Source: Levilactobacillus enshiensis (lineage in GTDB: Bacteria; Bacillota; Bacilli; Lactobacillales; Lactobacillaceae). From it: a stretch of DNA of 64,000 bases. The position numbers and the translations under genes are program-made. The stretch is from positions 1-64,000 of the forward strand of contig NZ_SULH01000001.1 of NCBI RefSeq assembly GCF_007115095.1. The letters are read 5' to 3'. This document shows positions 15,240 to 64,000 of the stretch, piece after piece. The notes beneath the pieces are model-generated. The model was given only the letters and a program-made list of their open reading frames with translations. It had not been told where the DNA came from and did not search any database. Each line of letters starts with the position of its first letter. Positions within the stretch are counted from its first letter, which is position 1.

Positions 15240-15311
15240 CGGTTTACTTTTACACGGGAACACGCCATAATTACTGATATATTGTGTAAATTGGTAAGCG
15301 GGGTGAACAGG

Positions 15312-16256
15312 GTGCAGAGTAATCAGCGAATTGCGGAATTAATGGTCCAGTTGATGGCGGGCAAGACGTTACAGGCGGAGAAAATCGCCGCCAAGTATGC
15401 CGTCAGCGCACGAACCAGTCAACGGGACTTTGCCTACATTCGCCGGGCGCTGTCTGAGTACACCGTGGGGGACTTAATTGAGAAACACGGCACCTACCGG
15501 CTGTCCCAACGGAGTGAAGAGACGGATGCCGCGATGGTGCTGGCCATGAGTAACATTCTGTTAGGCTCGCGCGCACTGAACCAAACGGAGTTGTCGGGGA
15601 CCCTTGATTACCTCAGCTCTGGGCTGGCACCAGCGATGCAAACTATTATCCGTCAGCAACTTACATCAGCACGGGGCAGCTACATGCCGTTATCGCGCAG
15701 CAAACCGCTATTGCACATGTTAAGAGAAGTCGCCAGTTGCATTACAAAAAATCAGCGGCTGGTGTTCACTTACCGTAGTAGTCAAGCTGGGGAGACGCAT
15801 GCTAAGGTGCATCATGCCAAACCGATTGCGTTATTTTTTGAGACCTATTACTTTTATGTGGCAATGCTGAGTGAGGAGCATGCGGGGTATTGGCTGTACC
15901 GCTTGGATCGCATTCAGACCATTCAGGAAAAATTGCCAGGTGAGAAGCACCATTTCGATGACCGCTACTCACTACAGGAACACCGGAACTACGCGTATCT
16001 ATTAGATTCAGGAGCGCTCACGCAGATTCGGTTTCGTTACTATAATTATGCGCAGACGGCCCTCGACCATTTTCCAGCCTCCCGCGTGGTCAAAGAATAT
16101 CCAGATGGCAGTTGCGACATCGAAGCTTACGTGAAAATTGACGGTGCCATCCTGTGGTTACTCAGTCAGGGAGCAGCCTTACGTGTGCTATCGTCAGTCT
16201 CGCTGGTGGACCAGATGCGTGCAACTTTACAGGCGACTTTAGAACAATACGACTAG
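15312..16256 (+). CDS. HTH/WYL-domain transcriptional regulator
   Basis: About 314 residues. An N-terminal HTH_11/DeoR-like winged helix (RIAELMVQLMAGKTLQAEKIAAKY...SARTSQRDFAYIRRAL) is followed by a linker and a WYL domain (KPIALFFETYYFYVAMLSEE ... YRLDRIQTI) plus the C-terminal WCX-like extension. WYL regulators bind nucleic acids or small ligands; many control defence or DNA-damage genes, others sugar metabolism. The GTG at 15312 is picked because GCGGGGTGA precedes it; GTG at 15303 and TTG at 15282 are in frame alternatives. Stands alone, 72 bases after the oxidoreductase, and ends in a terminator. Confidence 0.8.
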   Translation: MQSNQRIAELMVQLMAGKTLQAEKIAAKYAVSARTSQRDFAYIRRALSEYTVGDLIEKHGTYRLSQRSEETDAAMVLAMSNILLGSRALNQTELSGTLDYLSSGLAPAMQTIIRQQLTSARGSYMPLSRSKPLLHMLREVASCITKNQRLVFTYRSSQAGETHAKVHHAKPIALFFETYYFYVAMLSEEHAGYWLYRLDRIQTIQEKLPGEKHHFDDRYSLQEHRNYAYLLDSGALTQIRFRYYNYAQTALDHFPASRVVKEYPDGSCDIEAYVKIDGAILWLLSQGAALRVLSSVSLVDQMRATLQATLEQYD

Positions 16257-16260
16257 TACC

Positions 16261-16299
16261 AACGCTTAGTAGTGATCAAACTACTAGGCGTTTTTTTCA
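16261..16299 (+). terminator. Terminator of WYL regulator gene
   Basis: AACGCTTAGTAG / CTACTAGGCGTT hairpin followed by a seven-T run, right after the stop codon. Confidence 0.88.
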
Positions 16300-16340
16300 T
16301 GGCTGCCCTAAAAGTGACATATTATGTCGCCATCGTTTTG

Positions 16341-16346
16341 TATAAT
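16341..16346 (+). promoter_or_regulatory. -10 box ahead of the secreted-protein array
   Basis: TATAAT at 16341-16346 preceded by TTG; only a poorly spaced TGACAT (16315-16320) is available as -35. It is the only convincing promoter element before the seven-gene array. Confidence 0.45.
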
Positions 16347-16401: not shown

Positions 16402-16956
16402 ATGAAACTAGCAAAAGTAATTGGTTCATTATTAGTTGTGGGAACGATGGGGGCCGTTGCAATCGTCACCACACCAACGGCGACGGCACAAGCCAAGACC
16501 ACTTATTTGAAAACGCTGCCTAAGTCAATCCGGGGCACCTGGTACTACTATGAGGGTGGTCACTATCAAACGGATACGATTACCGCTAAGACTTGGAAGA
16601 ACCAGATATATTATGGCAAAAAAATGAACACGAGTACTTATACCCTGCATCAACCCAGCGTTAAGGGGAAGGCAAGTTGGATTTATGCGACTAAGAGTAG
16701 TAAGGGAACCGTCAGAATTGATGATTGGCCGTTATATAAGGGTAAGGCAGCGATGAAGGATTTTGGTAAACGCTACCTTACTGGTTTTAAAGCAACGACT
16801 AAGACCTATCAAGGAAGGAAAATCAAAGCACTTTCGCAAGTAGCCTACTCGTCACTTCCACGGATTACAAACTACTCATTCACCAGTAAGAAATTAGCCA
16901 AGCATTTTAATCCCAAGGGCCTGAGCTTCTACGACCGAATGGATCAACAGAAATAA
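16402..16956 (+). CDS. Small secreted protein, family A member 1
   Basis: 184 residues with a clear signal peptide (MKLAKVIGSLLVVGTMG..., cleavage after ATAQA). No recognised function. Shared with two neighbours (18158, 19304): an N-terminal LPKSIRGTWYYYEGGHY block in which R-G/R-TW-Y and E-x-G are invariant, an ITAK block, then a C-terminal TKTYQGRKIKAL and SKKLAKHFNPKG block. Rich in Lys, Tyr, Trp and predicted beta structure, suggesting a small beta-barrel, which is inference. It opens a tight run of seven same-strand secreted genes and has the best ribosome site (AAGGAGGAG) of the run. It is the most divergent A member, lacking the KKWP motif of the others. Confidence 0.7.
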   Translation: MKLAKVIGSLLVVGTMGAVAIVTTPTATAQAKTTYLKTLPKSIRGTWYYYEGGHYQTDTITAKTWKNQIYYGKKMNTSTYTLHQPSVKGKASWIYATKSSKGTVRIDDWPLYKGKAAMKDFGKRYLTGFKATTKTYQGRKIKALSQVAYSSLPRITNYSFTSKKLAKHFNPKGLSFYDRMDQQK

Positions 16957-17009
16957 ATAGATTTGTTGTAACGGTGAAAAGATGATGCAGAATGGAAGGA
17001 AGAATTTAA

Positions 17010-17555
17010 ATGAAAAAGTGGTTCAAACAAGTTTTGTTGGGGATGGCGTTGGTTGTCGGCTTCTTGGTTGTTGGTCTTGGTTCACCAGCTAAAGCACAAG
17101 CCGAGGCGCTTCCACATTTTGCTAGTCGGACGATTACATACCGGATTACGACGAAGAGCAAGGCTTACAAGAATGCGTGGACGAATGCCCTGAAGCAGTG
17201 GGGAAAGCTTGGCGTAGTCAAGTTTGTCCCAGCAACAGGGACTGCAAAGCCGGATTTTCAATTGGGAGCGGCTAACCTTAGTGATAATAGGAGTGACCAT
17301 TACGATACTACGCAAAGCATTGTGGAAAACTCTGAAGATGACATTGTTGTGAGGTATAAACTTAGCCTGAACCGGCGTGGTAAAAAGTCTGGCATTAAGA
17401 GGACAGCCATGGGTGCTATCGGTATCACACTTGGCTTAGAGACACCTAGCAAAAAGGCGAACAGTGCGCTGAAACCAGGGAAGAAGGCACCATCTAAGCC
17501 AACCAAACTGGATAAAAAGAATTTACAGAAAGTATATAAAGGTGTTCCTTACTAA
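17010..17555 (+). CDS. Secreted matrixin-like protein with erased zinc site, family B member 1
   Basis: 181 residues: signal peptide (cleavage after KAQA), then a matrixin-like frame: SRTITYRI (39-46), a helix with AWTNALKQWGKLGVVKFVP (57-75), a central variable region, and a C-terminal part aligning with the zinc-binding helix, Met-turn and last helix of the intact matrixin at 58664. HELGHALGLDH of that protein corresponds to GAIGITLGLET (135-145), so all three zinc His and the catalytic Glu are replaced while GxxLGL and the final LDKKNLQKVY helix persist. It cannot be a zinc protease; binding, inhibition or a structural surface role is possible but unproven. 53 bases after the first A gene, 30 before the next B gene. 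Confidence 0.72.
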   Translation: MKKWFKQVLLGMALVVGFLVVGLGSPAKAQAEALPHFASRTITYRITTKSKAYKNAWTNALKQWGKLGVVKFVPATGTAKPDFQLGAANLSDNRSDHYDTTQSIVENSEDDIVVRYKLSLNRRGKKSGIKRTAMGAIGITLGLETPSKKANSALKPGKKAPSKPTKLDKKNLQKVYKGVPY

Positions 17556-17585
17556 GCGCTAGGAACAGTAAAGGAAGAAAATAAA

Positions 17586-18143
17586 ATGGAAACGTGGTTA
17601 AAACGATTAATCGTGAGCACAGCACTGATTGTCGGCTGCCTGATTGGCCTTAGTACATCGGTTAATGCGCAGGCAAGTAGAACATTTCCCAGTCGAACAA
17701 TTACCTACCGCATCACTTCGAGCAGTCCCTACTACAAGAGTGTCTGGACGAAGGCAATCAAACGGTGGAATCACTTGCGGGTGGTTAAGCTAGTCAAGGC
17801 AGACGCTAACGCGGGTATGCCAGATGTTCAGATGACGACTACGCCGGGCGACAAGGGATCTTCTTACATGCTGATTTTAGATGAAGGTGATGATGATGCA
17901 CCTAGTCAGCGTACGACTTATAAAATTCAGCTGTATCGCAAGTTCATGAAATCCTGGTATTTTGACAAAGGTGATCGGGTTCAACTGGCAACGCGTACCA
18001 TCGGTGATGTAATGGGGCTGAAGACATCGAGTGATCCGAATAAGTTTGATAGTGTGATGAATACAACGACCTTTTCGTCTGCTAAACCAACGAAACGCGA
18101 TAAGAAGAATTTACAGAAATTGTACAAGAACGTCGCTTACTAA
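17586..18143 (+). CDS. Secreted matrixin-like protein with erased zinc site, family B member 2
   Basis: 185 residues; signal peptide ending VNAQA. Same frame as its neighbours: SRTITYRI (36-43), VWTKAIKRWNHLRVVKLV (53-70), then RTIGDVMGLKT (137-147) at the position of the zinc motif (His to Arg, Glu to Thr, His to Asp, His to Thr). The Met-turn-like DSVM (155-158) and the C-terminal KRDKKNLQKLY helix are retained. This copy therefore still shows its protease ancestry most clearly downstream of the zinc helix. It has an acidic patch (DEGDDDAP, 99-106) not present in the other members. 14 bases separate it from the following family A gene, and the B-A junction is nearly identical to the one at 19256. 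Confidence 0.72.
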   Translation: METWLKRLIVSTALIVGCLIGLSTSVNAQASRTFPSRTITYRITSSSPYYKSVWTKAIKRWNHLRVVKLVKADANAGMPDVQMTTTPGDKGSSYMLILDEGDDDAPSQRTTYKIQLYRKFMKSWYFDKGDRVQLATRTIGDVMGLKTSSDPNKFDSVMNTTTFSSAKPTKRDKKNLQKLYKNVAY

Positions 18144-18157
18144 AGGAGAAAATTATC

Positions 18158-18694
18158 GTGAAATTACTTAAAGCAACCAGTATTTTGCTGGCAGCAACCA
18201 CTTTTGGTGCTGCATTGGTAGCAGTGACTCCTGCAGCCACTGCCCATGCGGCAAAAAGAACGATGTTGAAGTCATACCCGAAGAATATGCGGCGGACTTG
18301 GTATCGTTACGAAAAGGGCCAGTATGTTTCGACGAAGATTACCGCTAAAAAGAATAGTGGTGTCGTGTTACATTACTTCAATCCGAATAAGAAGTGGCCA
18401 ACAATCACCAAGAAAAATCTATATTGGGCCTATGCTTATAAGATGAATAACGGTGTAATTGGTTCTGGCCCTTGGGGATCAATCAAATCTGAAAACTGGA
18501 CAACGGTCAATGATCTTGGTGCTTTGTTCGATCAAAAAGTGACGACTAAGACCTATAAAGGCAAAAAAATTAAGGTGCTTAAGGAACTTTATGCGAATTC
18601 GCAACCAGCCACTTGGCGGTATTCTTACACCTCGAAGAAGCTCGCAAAGCATTTCAATCCTAAAGGGACTGTTTTGTGGGCAGCAGATAAGTAA
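18158..18694 (+). CDS. Small secreted protein, family A member 2
   Basis: 178 residues from a GTG with TAAAGGAG 9 bases upstream. Signal peptide (KLLKATSILLAATTFG..., cleavage after AHA), then YPKNMRRTWYRYEKGQY, an ITAK block, KKWPTITKKN, a GSGPWG segment and the family C-terminus (TKTYKGKKIKVLKELYANS, SKKLAKHFNPKGT). It is the closest relative of the gene at 19304; the first 130 bases including the ribosome site are almost identical, so the two arose by recent duplication. Function unknown; exported, probably wall- or medium-located. Confidence 0.7.
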   Translation: MKLLKATSILLAATTFGAALVAVTPAATAHAAKRTMLKSYPKNMRRTWYRYEKGQYVSTKITAKKNSGVVLHYFNPNKKWPTITKKNLYWAYAYKMNNGVIGSGPWGSIKSENWTTVNDLGALFDQKVTTKTYKGKKIKVLKELYANSQPATWRYSYTSKKLAKHFNPKGTVLWAADK

Positions 18695-18752
18695 AATGGA
18701 GGAGAAATAATATAAGAAATTGATTGAATAATTTGAGAAGGGAAGAACTGAA

Positions 18753-19289
18753 GTGAAAAAATGGGTTAAGCAACTCATGATGGGCATGGCTGTCGTGGTT
18801 GGCCTTTTGGTGATTGGGTTTGGCTCACCAGTTAATGCACAAGCTAAAAAAGATTCACATTTGCCAAGCCGGACGATTACATATCAGATTGTGACGACGA
18901 GTCCGACTTACCGGCAGGCGTGGACTGATGCGCTCAAGCAATGGGGGAAACTCCACGTCGTTCGTTTTGTCCCAACTACGGAAACGGCAACCGTTCAGTT
19001 AGGAACATTTACGTCGAAGAACAAAAAGAATGTGTTCAAGACGGATCAACGGACGACCTACACGCAGACAGGCGTCTTTTCAACCTACAAATTGGACATG
19101 AATCGGCGCGTTATCAAAAAGGCCGATACCCCTAAAATGGCAAACAAAGCCATCGGCATCTTCCTGGGATTACAGCCAACCAGTAAAAAGGCCAACAGTA
19201 TCTTGAGCCCGCGGAAGAAGGCGCCTGCTAAGCCAACGAGGCTGGATAAACAGCATTTACAGAAATTGTACAAGAACGTCGCTTACTAA
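18753..19289 (+). CDS. Secreted matrixin-like protein with erased zinc site, family B member 3
   Basis: 178 residues from a GTG start (AAGGGAAG site). Very similar to member 1 at the N-terminus (MKKWVKQLMMGMAVVVG, SRTITYQI, QAWTDALKQWGKLHVVRFVP) and C-terminus (KKAPAKPTRLDKQHLQKLY). The zinc-motif position reads KAIGIFLGLQP (132-142): no His, no Glu. The 58-base gap before it is AT-rich and contains no terminator, so transcription from upstream is expected to continue. The middle (about 80-125) is the least conserved part between B members, where a ligand-specific surface could lie. Confidence 0.72.
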   Translation: MKKWVKQLMMGMAVVVGLLVIGFGSPVNAQAKKDSHLPSRTITYQIVTTSPTYRQAWTDALKQWGKLHVVRFVPTTETATVQLGTFTSKNKKNVFKTDQRTTYTQTGVFSTYKLDMNRRVIKKADTPKMANKAIGIFLGLQPTSKKANSILSPRKKAPAKPTRLDKQHLQKLYKNVAY

Positions 19290-19303
19290 AGGAGAAAAAT
19301 ATA

Positions 19304-19828
19304 GTGAAACTACTTAAAGCAACCAGTATTTTGCTGGCAGCAACCACATTTGGCGCTTCGTTAGTAGCAGTGGCTCCTGCAGCCACCGCCCATGCGGCCA
19401 ACAAAACGATGCTTAAAGCATACCCCAAGAATATGCGCCGGACTTGGTATCGCTACGAGAAAGGCCACTACGTCAAGGAACGGATTACGGCTAAGACTAA
19501 TGATGGGGACAAGCTCCATTACGTTAATCCAAAGAAAAAATGGCCGAAAGTCACTAAGAAAAATAGAAATTGGATCTACGCCTTCCGTACGAACAAAGGT
19601 GTCGTTGGCACAGGTCCTTGGTGGGGATTTGAGACCAACTGGGAGAGCCTGAATGACGTTGGTAGTATGAAGGGTGAACAAGTTGTTACGAAGACTTATC
19701 AAGGTAAGAAAGTTAAGGTGCTTAAGGAAATTTACTCCAATTCGGCACCATTAGTTTGGGGTTATTCCTATCCAACCAAGCAAATGGCCAAGCATTTTAA
19801 CCCTAAAGGGACCGTTTTGTGGTCTTAG
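19304..19828 (+). CDS. Small secreted protein, family A member 3
   Basis: 174 residues from a GTG 14 bases after the B gene, with the same TAAAGGAG site as member 2. Signal peptide ending AHAAN, YPKNMRRTWYRYEKGHY, ITAK, KKWPKVTKKN, GTGPWWG and the C-terminal TKTYQGKKVKVLKEIYSNS and KQMAKHFNPKGT blocks. It ends abruptly with VLWS, a few residues shorter than member 2. No known domain recognised. Confidence 0.7.
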   Translation: MKLLKATSILLAATTFGASLVAVAPAATAHAANKTMLKAYPKNMRRTWYRYEKGHYVKERITAKTNDGDKLHYVNPKKKWPKVTKKNRNWIYAFRTNKGVVGTGPWWGFETNWESLNDVGSMKGEQVVTKTYQGKKVKVLKEIYSNSAPLVWGYSYPTKQMAKHFNPKGTVLWS

Positions 19829-19854
19829 AATTAACATCCTAAAGGAGAAATAAT

Positions 19855-20565
19855 ATGATGAAAAAATTTGTTAAAGCAAGTGTCTTAGCAACGTTGAGTT
19901 TAGGTCTAGTCGTACCAGCTGCAACCACATCGGCTAGTGCCAAGAGTCGTGTCAAGGTCATTTCAACGACCAGCGTGGCGAAGCAGGCCTACCACGGGAA
20001 AAAGGGAAACATTTACACGAGTGCCAAGCTGAACAAGCGTCACTACGTCATGAAAAATTATAAGTACACGACTTGGTACGTGACGAAGCAAGCGGTTATT
20101 AAGAACAACGGCAAGAAGGGGACTTTGGCCTACGTCAAGGCGGGCAATAAGGCTGGTTGGATCTATAAGAAGTATTTGACCGCGGGCAAGGCACCGGTGA
20201 ATAAAGCTAAGATTTTAGCCAACGATTCCGTTTCGTTTAACCGGGCGATGATGTCGGCTAGTGAACAAATCCAAGACTCAACAAGTGAAAATTATGATAG
20301 CTATAAGGATATGGGCAGTCAACTAACATATGCCTTTTTTGAATACGACGGCGACGTAGCTGAAATTAATTTGGACAGAACAGCAATGTTAAAGGTTTAC
20401 AATTTGTTTGAAGGTCGGTTTAGCAAATCTCAAAATGCAGATTTAGCTGCAATGGCTAGTCAAATAGAAAACCTACAAGTTACAGGAGATAATCAGGACT
20501 TGTCAGCAACTAAAGTAACAACATTTGGAACAACTCTTGGGGGCTTAATTCAGACTCTGGGTTAG
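19855..20565 (+). CDS. Secreted SH3/SLAP-like protein with unrelated C-terminal region
   Basis: 236 residues (ATG 19855; ATG 19858 equally possible) with AAAGGAGAAA upstream. Signal peptide MKKFVKASVLATLSLGLVVP..., cleavage after SASA. Residues about 30-115 form one wall-binding-like repeat reminiscent of the 5147 protein (Lys/Tyr-rich, TTWYVTKQAV, TLAYVKAGNKAGWIYKKYL). The C-terminal half (about 120-236) is different in composition: acidic, Ser/Asn/Gln-rich, and AT-richer at DNA level from about 20200. After its TAG stop the same frame continues into a family A C-terminus, so the gene looks like a mosaic. Last complete gene of the secreted-protein array. Confidence 0.65.
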   Translation: MMKKFVKASVLATLSLGLVVPAATTSASAKSRVKVISTTSVAKQAYHGKKGNIYTSAKLNKRHYVMKNYKYTTWYVTKQAVIKNNGKKGTLAYVKAGNKAGWIYKKYLTAGKAPVNKAKILANDSVSFNRAMMSASEQIQDSTSENYDSYKDMGSQLTYAFFEYDGDVAEINLDRTAMLKVYNLFEGRFSKSQNADLAAMASQIENLQVTGDNQDLSATKVTTFGTTLGGLIQTLG

Positions 20566-20646
20566 CTAGAAGTAAGGAAAAAATCGAAGAAGTTGGCCAA
20601 ACACTTCGATCCTAAAGAAATCGTGTTACGGGTCGAGAGTGAATAA
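20566..20646 (+). pseudogene. C-terminal remnant of a family A gene
   Basis: Directly after the TAG at 20563, in the same frame, the sequence reads KKSKKLAKHFDPKEIVL and stops at 20644-20646. This matches the terminal block SKKLAKHFNPKGTVL of the family A proteins, with no start codon or ribosome site of its own. It marks a deletion or recombination event that replaced the body of a fourth A gene. Confidence 0.75.
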
Positions 20647-20715: not shown

Positions 20716-20753
20716 AAACAGGGCAAACCTTCATGCGGGAGGTTTGTCCTGTT
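20716..20753. terminator. Bidirectional terminator
   Basis: AAACAGGGCAAACCT / GAGGTTTGTCCTGTTT hairpin between the rightward secreted-protein array and the leftward ABC operon; usable by both. Confidence 0.8.
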
Positions 20754-20766
20754 TGTGTTTGGTCGT

Positions 20767-58663: not shown

Positions 58664-59374
58664 GTGAGGTTGAAAATTTTTAGGCGATTCATGTTGGTCA
58701 TGACGTTGGCAGTAGGCCTCTTTGTCGTCAGCAATTGGCGTTCACTCAGCTATTACCGAACCGCGTTAGCGACGTTGGCAACGGGGCTAGTGACTGGCAA
58801 GACGACCACGACGCAGTCCGCCGACTATCGGTCGAGTGGGTATATTTTGCGAAATACCACTGATGCAGCGACTCAGACCGGGGCGAACAACACGCCGGTC
58901 GAAGAGGCCATGCAGGGGGTCCTCTTGCAGAAAACGTATCGTTACCATTACGCGGTGGGAACGCCAGCACGCGTCAAACAAAAGTTCAACACGGCCATTC
59001 GGGTCTACAATCAGACCGGCATCGTCAAATTGACAGCCGGCAAAGCGAAAGCCAATGAGAATCAGGTCACGCTGAGTGCTTATCGCAAGGAAGAGGAACT
59101 CAGGCAAGGAACCGTAGAGTTGGGGCACGGTGGCCCTCAGATTACACAGCGCATCAGTTGGCGGGGCATTCAAACCACCAACACCGGTCAAGCCAAATTG
59201 AATGTGACTTATACGCAGGCAGTTAAGCTATCCGTGGCGGTGCACGAATTAGGTCATGCCCTAGGACTCGACCACAGTTCTGACAGGGACTCCGTGATGA
59301 CTGCCATTGATCATGGGAACACGCAGTTGTCGACGGCCGATGTGAAGAGCTTGAAGAGCATTTACGACAAGTAA
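58664..59374 (+). CDS. Exported matrixin-type zinc metalloprotease
   Basis: 236 residues from a GTG (GGGAAGGGA upstream). Signal anchor about 7-24, a spacer to about 85, then the matrixin catalytic domain (about 90-236): central strand and helix (VKQKFNTAIRVYNQTGIVKL), zinc site HELGHALGLDH (194-204; His194, His198, His204, Glu195) and Met-turn SVM (210-212), with the final helix DVKSLKSIY. All catalytic residues are intact, in contrast to the three B proteins at 17010-19289 and the protein at the right edge. Likely a membrane-anchored or released peptidase acting at the surface; substrates unknown. Confidence 0.9.
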   Translation: MRLKIFRRFMLVMTLAVGLFVVSNWRSLSYYRTALATLATGLVTGKTTTTQSADYRSSGYILRNTTDAATQTGANNTPVEEAMQGVLLQKTYRYHYAVGTPARVKQKFNTAIRVYNQTGIVKLTAGKAKANENQVTLSAYRKEEELRQGTVELGHGGPQITQRISWRGIQTTNTGQAKLNVTYTQAVKLSVAVHELGHALGLDHSSDRDSVMTAIDHGNTQLSTADVKSLKSIYDK

Positions 59375-63578: not shown

Positions 63579-64000
63579 TTATTTGACGCCTTTATATGCT
63601 GCCTTTAAGTTAGCTCGGTCAAATGACGTGATTGTCTGACTGCCACCCATGATACTATTATCAGAATCAACATAATTTAAACCTAGTGCAGAGCCTAATT
63701 CGGCTGTCGCAAACTGAATAATTTGAGTATCCGAATAATTGTATTTTTTAATATAATGCCTACTTAAACGAATTTGAGTATTCATAATACTACCTCCAAA
63801 TAAACTGGAGTTATTCCTATCTGGTGCATCATGCTTTATATTTTTAACAGATGTTATTCTAATATCTGCCTTACTTTTTTTCTTTGTGTTTACTAATTTT
63901 ATTACGCCATTCGTTTCCCAATTCTTGACAGCAGCCTTAAATATTCCACGATAGTGTTTTGAAGTTGAATCAATATGATAAGTAATTTTCTTTGAATCGA
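63579..64000 (-). CDS. Matrixin-like protein with altered zinc site (start beyond window)
   Basis: The minus-strand frame is open from the window edge (64000) to the stop at 63579, about 140 residues. No stop interrupts it, so the ATG at 63785 is internal. Visible: KITYHIDSTSKHYRGIF, AAVKNWETNGVIKL, KADIRIT, then TAELGSALGLNYVDSDNSIM and a final FDRANLKAAYKG helix. The zinc motif HELGHALGLDH is AELGSALGLNY here: Glu stays, all three His are replaced, while the Met-turn NSIM remains. A fifth matrixin-fold protein of the window and the fourth without a zinc site. Markedly AT-richer than its neighbours in its 5' part. Confidence 0.8.
   Translation of the reverse strand, partial: DSKKITYHIDSTSKHYRGIFKAAVKNWETNGVIKLVNTKKKSKADIRITSVKNIKHDAPDRNNSSLFGGSIMNTQIRLSRHYIKKYNYSDTQIIQFATAELGSALGLNYVDSDNSIMGGSQTITSFDRANLKAAYKGVK

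Follow-up and report, generated by a model that had tools for sequence, protein, structure and literature searches.

The window analysed here, the whole stretch of 64,000 nucleotides at the start of contig NZ_SULH01000001.1 of Levilactobacillus enshiensis, comes from a 3.07 Mb genome whose relatives are Levilactobacillus. Our subject is an array of genes for secreted proteins at 16402-20565, which in the list of open reading frames (ORFs) comprises seven frames, all on the + strand, in the order A1-B1-B2-A2-B3-A3-S, with a remnant of a further A gene behind them. The features on which the analysis rests are the following:

15282-16256, + strand: gene of a WYL/WCX-domain transcription regulator that adjoins the array and is its likely regulator (Pfam, orthologues, neighbours).
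16261-16292, + strand: terminator-like stem 3' of the WYL gene (13-pair stem and T run).
16316-16346, + strand: array promoter element, consisting of the palindrome GACATATTATGTC at 16316-16328, 12 bases, and TATAAT at 16341-16346 (element search).
16402-16956, + strand: A1, secreted, predicted beta-barrel family, motif RGTWY (ORF, A alignment).
17010-17555, + strand: B1, zinc-less matrixin-like secreted protein, GAIGITLGLET (ORF, alignment).
17586-18143, + strand: B2, zinc-less matrixin-like secreted protein, RTIGDVMGLKT (alignment, predicted structure).
18158-18694, + strand: A2, A family, barrel-like (alignment, predicted structure).
18753-19289, + strand: B3, zinc-less matrixin-like secreted protein, KAIGIFLGLQP (weak Pfam M10 match, alignment).
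19304-19828, + strand: A3, A family (ORF, A alignment).
19855-20565, + strand: S, secreted SH3-like protein (label from the earlier note and sequence pattern).
20581-20646, + strand: C-terminal remnant of one more A gene, reading KSKKLAKHFDPKEIVLRVESE (translation).
20716-20754, + strand: terminator-like stem closing the array (17-pair stem).
58664-59374, + strand: intact secreted matrixin with HELGHALGLDH, a comparison copy outside the array (Pfam M10, 5e-12).
63579-64000, - strand: 3' part of an unlinked dead matrixin with AELGSALGLNY, whose gene extends beyond the window (same palindrome at contig position 64175-64187).

Successive gaps between the seven frames are 53, 30, 14, 58, 14 and 26 bases. 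An earlier note on this DNA had described seven exported small proteins in the same-strand order A-B-B-A-B-A, plus an SH3-like protein and an A remnant, with gaps of 14-58 bases; this layout is confirmed, with S counted among the seven and A and B contributing three each. All array proteins carry predicted Sec-type signal sequences at their N-termini, as judged by eye. GC content is 0.39-0.46 in the array and 0.49-0.58 in most flanking windows, and a putative ABC transporter gene (a label from sequence) lies downstream on the opposite strand. The array is bracketed by the two longest terminator-like stems, at 16261-16292 and 20716-20754. The lack of an internal terminator is weak evidence, because terminator-like hits (5) are no commoner than in shuffled sequence (mean 4.3). 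The A and B genes of the array are probably made in the same transcript.

The B proteins are matrixin homologues from which the zinc ligands and the catalytic glutamate have been erased. HELGHALGLDH of the intact copy at 58664 aligns with GAIGITLGLET in B1, RTIGDVMGLKT in B2 and KAIGIFLGLQP in B3, the degeneration pointed out previously, and the resemblance is beyond chance. The Pfam matrixin profile (M10) matches B3 from position 5 to 158 of 159 (E 0.0043) and finds four of the nine proteins of the B lineage, a clade delimited below (best E 9e-5); B1 and B3 score under the curated cut-off. When these nine were compared by hhalign with nine intact Lactobacillaceae matrixins, the match reached 99.6% with E 1e-23 over 147 columns. 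As intact comparison for B, the earlier note had used 58664: it does align with B, but the copy nearest by identity to the query in the source genome is another one, on contig C8 (L010 1357-1926; here and below, G, C and L handles denote genomes, contigs and loci).

The AlphaFold model of B2, the one B protein predicted, was built on an alignment containing no intact matrixin and has a predicted local distance difference test score (pLDDT) of 86.3 and a predicted template modelling score (pTM) of 0.85. Foldseek places human matrix metalloproteinases (MMPs) at the top of its matches (best E 5e-7), and a second aligner, VIA, superposes the model on karilysin with Z 14.2 (3.2 Å, 137 residues), tied with snapalysin at 14.1. 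Sequence searches of solved structures with B gave weak matrilysin rows only. The predicted B2 structure and the hhalign match thus agree on a metzincin catalytic-domain fold, and the structure check that had been proposed returned a matrixin.

None of the nine B-lineage proteins retains the HExxHxxGxxH zinc motif with its catalytic Glu: all nine lack a His at each of the three ligand positions as well as the Glu, and have few His elsewhere. At the second ligand position seven of them have Asp in place of His (in AIGD), and B1 and B3 have Ile; the Met-turn Met is present in the same number, with Leu in B1 and B3. The core glycine and leucine are invariant. B has thus lost the catalytic residues of an active family to which it is homologous, as a pseudoprotease does.

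To place this loss we used a matrixin set made of B3 tblastn matches in 35 genomes of the genus and a chosen part of the matches in the family, a set that is not exhaustive and leaves out further M10 matches of the source genome. Among 136 distinct matrixin-like frames in the collected loci, 101 have the full motif, one has it with an insertion, one is a fragment and 33 are dead. The frame with the insertion (L171, four extra residues) counts as intact in the neighbour and element tallies, which therefore have 102 intact genes, and stays outside the plain-motif 101. The window fragment 63579-63785 (a piece of L011 5580-6116) was removed before counting, and a dead-type frame with an internal stop on G015:C17 (L043) was excluded. 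Across the 33 dead rows G8 and L9 are kept in 33/33, G4 in 27/33 and the Met-turn Met in 20/33. That these 33 frames are open is no evidence of function, because only open frames were counted.

In the tree, the 33 dead rows form one side of a branch with support 99/84. After removal of the motif columns (an analysis from which, as from the approximately unbiased (AU) test, four rows on very long branches, one of them dead, were omitted) the best fit is two changes, and a single dead clade is not rejected (AU p 0.43). The data fit a loss of catalysis long ago, with one or two origins for the 33 dead proteins; we had entertained many independent losses and dropped the idea, one or two origins being sufficient. 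Nine of the dead rows make up the B lineage, a clade with support 100/99 that is found in six of the 35 genus genomes: the source, L. koreensis, L. andaensis, L. brevis CD0817, L. angrenensis and L. hammesii. Among the 251 family genomes sampled, nothing outside the genus reaches its scores, the next group standing at about 100 bits compared to 230 and more. A contig search with B3 alone gave no relative, while a search with the B alignment gave five named species; tblastn of B3 against plasmids gave no match. A search of PHROGs with A2, B2, S and X (a family described below) returned nothing convincing, phage genome records lying outside that search, and a phage origin is thus without support here. 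Intact-motif secreted matrixins also occur in tandem, in genus g20: six are consecutive in L215 4581-11826 (G190), and L216-L219 have them too.

We estimated the ratio of nonsynonymous to synonymous substitution (dN/dS) in hand-picked close pairs. By NG86 it is 0.10-0.39 in 11 dead pairs vs 0.03-0.065 in seven intact pairs, and by YN00 0.15-0.62 vs 0.05-0.10 (one intact pair not being computable), values that are rough because the synonymous divergence (dS) exceeds 1 in several pairs. All 11 dead pairs stay below 1 by both methods. Dead matrixins are under purifying selection, as expected of retained genes, and it is looser than in the intact ones. The proposal that the matrixin fold was kept and multiplied while its catalytic residues were lost therefore holds, on the B2 model, the hhalign match, the 33-row alignment, the tree and dN/dS.

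Two findings go beyond what had been noted before, a shared promoter element and a WYL regulator. The element was found by comparing promoters of the array type and consists of the palindrome GACATATTATGTC at 16316, 12 bases before TATAAT; it is the only one in the window at up to three mismatches in all, and the same element precedes the A gene in the corresponding slot of L. koreensis and L. andaensis. Exact matches to the palindrome consensus GACAYAWTRTGTC number exactly three in the 3.07 Mb genome, all at dead-matrixin loci: before the array, before the B gene on contig C54 and before the dead matrixin at C1:63585. This whole-genome result is free of any bias from the choice of loci. The fourth dead matrixin of the genome (C34) lacks the palindrome. 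With one mismatch allowed there are 14 sites in the source genome vs 5 for the reversed pattern. Requiring palindrome and TATAAT at the fixed distance, with two mismatches, leaves five vs two; besides the three exact sites, the five comprise one at an A homologue (C12) and one at a gene that has a close relative in G002 with a borderline CAP-domain match.

The palindrome, at no more than one mismatch, precedes 17 of the 33 dead and none of the 102 intact matrixin genes (Fisher 7e-13), with a rate of 0.4% in shuffles that preserve base composition only. Across the genus we counted 119 element sites at up to two mismatches, in 29 of the 35 genomes, vs 9 for the reversed pattern. Part of these sites yielded 96 distinct contexts. 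A is the first gene in 34 of them, a dead matrixin in 13 and S in 11; 35 have some other gene and 3 have none, and an intact matrixin is never first. Because loci were partly chosen for A or matrixin genes, including intact matrixins, the tally is biased in their favour. Counts of signal peptides by regular expression were discarded as too permissive, 43% of background ORFs matching the pattern. Elsewhere in the family, outside the genus, element sites are rare. One in genus g20 has an A homologue about 37 bases downstream of it, and at G269:C16:13265-13313, in another genus, two overlapping matches on opposite strands share one palindrome, as in a divergent promoter.

Further genes recur behind the element. 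Proteins of about 400 residues with no obvious signal sequence stand repeatedly behind palindrome and TATAAT (L305, L308, L310, L311, L313), and the one scanned with Pfam had no match. A secreted 336-residue protein follows the element in five genomes (L297, L306, L320, L326, L264), with a borderline CAP match in the one copy scanned, and in three of them it lies about 5-6 kb from a WYL paralogue.

The gene upstream of the element encodes a WYL domain with a C-terminal WCX domain (Pfam, 3.8e-9 and 1.1e-6). Genus-wide, 26 of the 119 element sites fall within 3 kb of a WYL gene, vs 0.5 expected. Seen from the regulator, an element lies within 3 kb of 15 of 20 orthologues, source genome included, and of 8 of 32 other WYL genes; the orthologous sites are not independent of each other, and the paralogues are separate cases. 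Three element sites lead straight into WYL-family genes, as self-regulation would. Judging by the position of the sites, the WYL protein beside the array and its paralogues are most likely the regulators acting at the palindrome. Element and regulator together tie the array to unlinked loci.

The place between the WYL gene and the transporter is a site of changing content. Nineteen further genomes of the genus have an orthologue of the WYL gene, at 57-87% identity. In 17 of these loci it is followed by the transporter gene, one lacks that gene and one ends with the contig. Between the two genes there is nothing, A, S, A-S, A-S-A or a longer run, and A, S or dead-matrixin genes stand beside WYL in 14 of the 19, with dead matrixins just before WYL in L. 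hammesii and G022. The closest comparisons are WYL-A-S-A in L. koreensis and WYL-A-S in L. andaensis (WYL identity 87 and 86%), both without B. In L. koreensis a full A occupies the position between S and the transporter gene where the array has its A remnant. The first A gene of both species is a mosaic, A1-like over about the first 120 bases (75-85%) and A2-like after that (68-90%), which would be the expected leftover of a crossover between A1 and A2 that deleted B1 and B2; the direction of change is not proven. The mosaic weakens the idea of a recent insertion of B at the array site, which we had considered. The B2-A2 junction and the B3-A3 junction are each spanned by a copy of a 252-base repeat (87% identity). 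Mosaic and repeat indicate that array members exchange sequence among themselves and that the array changes in this way. Its turnover and the raised dN/dS speak for a changing partner, and no more than that.

At other loci too, B keeps company with A. Same-strand neighbourhoods of A and B, which had been suggested as a check, exist in L. koreensis, L. andaensis, L. brevis, L. angrenensis and L. hammesii and at the C54 locus of the source genome. Next to a gene labelled putatively pgi, L. koreensis and L. andaensis have LPxTG protein-B-A, and L. brevis and L. angrenensis have X-B-S-A; the C54 locus likewise has the pgi neighbour, and at this second B locus of the genome the intact B gene, the one B without an intact A nearby, has directly behind it a decayed A with stops and no N-terminus (L009 7950-8260). 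B and A are directly adjacent in two species, have S between them in two and two genes between them in L. hammesii. A secreted partner gene beside the metzincin gene, in direct contact, is thus seen in the array, L. koreensis and L. andaensis. In numbers, an A gene lies within 2.5 kb of 8/9 B rows, 3/24 other dead rows and 3/102 intact ones (weak A scores for the intact), and an S gene within 2.5 kb of 5/9, 5/24 and 1/102, respectively. The non-B dead rows alone show an S excess (p 0.0009).

The LPxTG-type protein directly upstream of B at the pgi locus (L102 5833-7743, L103 5864-7744, L009 9071-11086) has collagen-binding and SpaA domains in the one copy scanned, L102. Family X, which heads X-B-S-A, is a small secreted protein with an NRWxYKLTNVKAKR core (L104 7437-7964, L105 7418-7984, L078), and in another species too it has the promoter element.

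The idea that A is simply the partner of B is not supported by distribution, A being present in 31 of the 35 genus genomes and the B lineage in 6, nor by the array site of L. koreensis and L. andaensis, where A and the SH3-like gene stand without B. Overall, the interpretation given in the earlier note is partly supported. Among 53 A homologues GTWY occurs in 27 and RTWY in 14, and a pattern search found neither in 9; A1 has GTWY, A2 and A3 have RTWY. A2 was modelled with confidence, the best of five models reaching a pLDDT of 84 and the worst 54; the predicted shape resembles a barrel and has a short turn, a first long strand carrying [GR]TWY and a C-terminal helix. A GxW on the first strand is a hallmark of calycins and lipocalins. 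Structural matches of A2 are mostly fatty-acid-binding proteins and lipocalins with Z 5.2 and below, the best being a bile-acid-binding protein (Z 5.2, 86 residues); calycin membership is a lead only because of these values. Foldseek with the A2 model gave nothing under E 0.001, a sequence search of solved structures with A gave chance rows only, and Pfam and NCBIfam gave nothing convincing for A and S. S is 50-51% identical to the S of the B cassettes in L. brevis and L. angrenensis. In L065, L066 and L069 a dead-matrixin group has, about 750 bases further on, a protein of some 330 residues whose N-terminal part is of the S type.

Our preferred reading, to which we give a probability of about 0.6, is that the array is one unit of a WYL-controlled, genus-wide regulon of mostly small secreted proteins, rich in non-catalytic binders. 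Its switch would be the palindrome-plus-TATAAT promoter, worked by the WYL-domain regulator beside the array and by its paralogues. B would be an old pseudo-matrixin lineage in which the metzincin fold is kept for binding in place of cleavage; its former substrate cleft, residues replaced, may bind a protein, and A of the same array is the first candidate. A, a predicted barrel that is possibly calycin-like, and the SH3-like S would both belong to the array regulon, the arrays would change by recombination between paralogues, and the proteins may act at the cell envelope or on neighbours.

Several observations weigh against this regulon reading. On the side of the switch, 16 of the 33 dead genes have no palindrome or a weak one in front of them (three of the 16 are B1-B3 inside the operon, and two stand behind a gene X with a three-mismatch element), and several other dead genes have the palindrome but lack a TATAAT at the fixed spacing. 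Some genomes that have sites, such as G012 and G015, have no WYL orthologue above 57% identity, and 22 'other' and three A frames of the 96 contexts lack even a loose signal pattern. On the side of the proteins, the dead set needs two changes once the motif columns are left out, a single one appearing in only 12% of bootstrap trees, and the raised dN/dS can equally mean weak constraint. The dead-type copy of G015 (L043 1528-1956) has a stop inside its match. Dead rows are mutually related, B1-B3 of the window being three rows from one locus, and row-based tests therefore overstate independence. Finally, the A excess is not significant for the non-B dead rows (p 0.08), A is mostly distant from any dead matrixin, and in L. 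hammesii B and A are probably separate transcripts because a second promoter element lies between them. Apart from this, the G015 copy is close to the L063/L064 group.

Among the alternatives the one that survives best, unlikely as we consider it, is a silent metzincin-and-barrel pair, in which A derives from a protease inhibitor or partner and A-B complexes now have a structural or sensing role on the cell wall. A same-strand A within 2.5 kb at six of the seven B loci, and a decayed one at the seventh, is what such a pair would leave, and the barrel-like A2 model with [GR]TWY on its first long strand, its matches including fatty-acid-binding proteins and lipocalins, agrees with it. There are precedents in the Listeria Mtz-Tim, potempin-KLIKK and serralysin-Inh systems (PMC8235301, PMC7296668, PMC9486555). 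However, the best Z of A2 is low and Foldseek adds no match under E 0.001, A is far more widespread than B and is seen near so few intact matrixins, with weak scores, and L. hammesii has separate promoters for B and A.

An extended form of the regulon reading is rather unlikely. In it the genus would have turned the matrixin fold into secreted, protease-dead recognition modules, combined variably with barrel and SH3-like partners in arrays under one WYL-sensed switch and forming a diversifying surface system for phage or rival exclusion or for envelope remodelling. Doubtful, too, is the proposal of diversifying secreted effectors or shields for competition or phage exclusion, that is, variable surface modules with a WYL switch as in phage-defence loci. 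It draws on array content that varies between close species at a fixed site, on visible paralogue recombination and raised dN/dS, and on the WYL regulator BrxR being part of a phage restriction system (PMC9122589). All of this is association alone, and no immunity-like membrane gene, exporter or toxin-like domain was recognised in the array, just as the plasmid search with B3 and the PHROGs search, which did not extend to phage records, brought no convincing match.

That the dead matrixins are relaxed paralogues heading for loss, slow pseudogenes in a recombining array, is improbable. Decay does occur (the A remnant at 20581, the A at C54, the internal stop in G015), selection is looser than on intact copies, and B is absent at the same site in sister species. 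Against this stand the 11 of 11 dead pairs with dN/dS below 1, the replacement residues that seven of the nine B-lineage proteins share, for instance the Asp of AIGD, and the retention of a specific promoter element. Least of all do we expect B still to bind metal or to cleave via another site, a very remote prospect despite the retained fold and, in most, the Met-turn, given the missing ligand His in all nine rows and the scarcity of His elsewhere.

Compared to known systems, B resembles bacterial matrixins (PF00413, e.g. karilysin) in fold, secretion signal, GxxLGL core and mostly in the Met-turn, and differs from them in having neither zinc ligands nor catalytic Glu and in forming one or two separate clades. 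A 2025 survey assigns about 15% of bacterial MMP sequences to Lactobacillus, and the word 'inactive' was not found in its main text (PMC12587646). The M12 ADAM pseudopeptidases are also metzincins with replaced zinc ligands and a Met-turn typically kept, and they have binding roles; B, unlike them, consists of small bacterial proteins in gene arrays (PMC11266112). That 2024 review of inactive metallopeptidases has cases from M1, M12, M13, M14 and M16 and, in the parts drawn on here, no M10 example. In the open-access literature that we searched, as far as its accessible text goes, metzincin pseudoproteases are of the animal ADAM type.

Gene arrangements offer further parallels. Listeria Mtz-Tim is a secreted metzincin beside a secreted partner, with its own regulator; the partner resembles a metzincin inhibitor and the pair acts on the cell wall (PMC8235301). 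It differs from the array in having an active protease that cleaves its partner, a CI/Cro-like regulator and, as the partner, a lipoprotein resembling tissue inhibitors of metalloproteinases (TIMP) (PMC8235301). B, its catalytic residues lost, is no active protease of that kind. In the potempin-KLIKK operons of Tannerella a secreted protease gene lies directly behind a small-protein gene, that of the inhibitor, and karilysin, a matrixin, is one of the KLIKK proteases; these are active, unlike B (PMC7296668), and no sequence link to A was found. The I38 inhibitors of serralysins are calycin barrels (PMC9486555), and the proteases described in these three papers are active ones (PMC8235301, PMC7296668, PMC9486555). 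BrxR, finally, is a WYL-domain protein beside genes that it probably controls, and differs in that the candidate WYL targets here include arrays of secreted proteins (PMC9122589).

An old, radiating bacterial clade of small dead metzincins provides a simple system for studying the post-catalytic roles of a protease fold. The shared element, for its part, turns scattered and anonymous secreted genes into one candidate regulon, whose inducer and regulator are testable in L. brevis.

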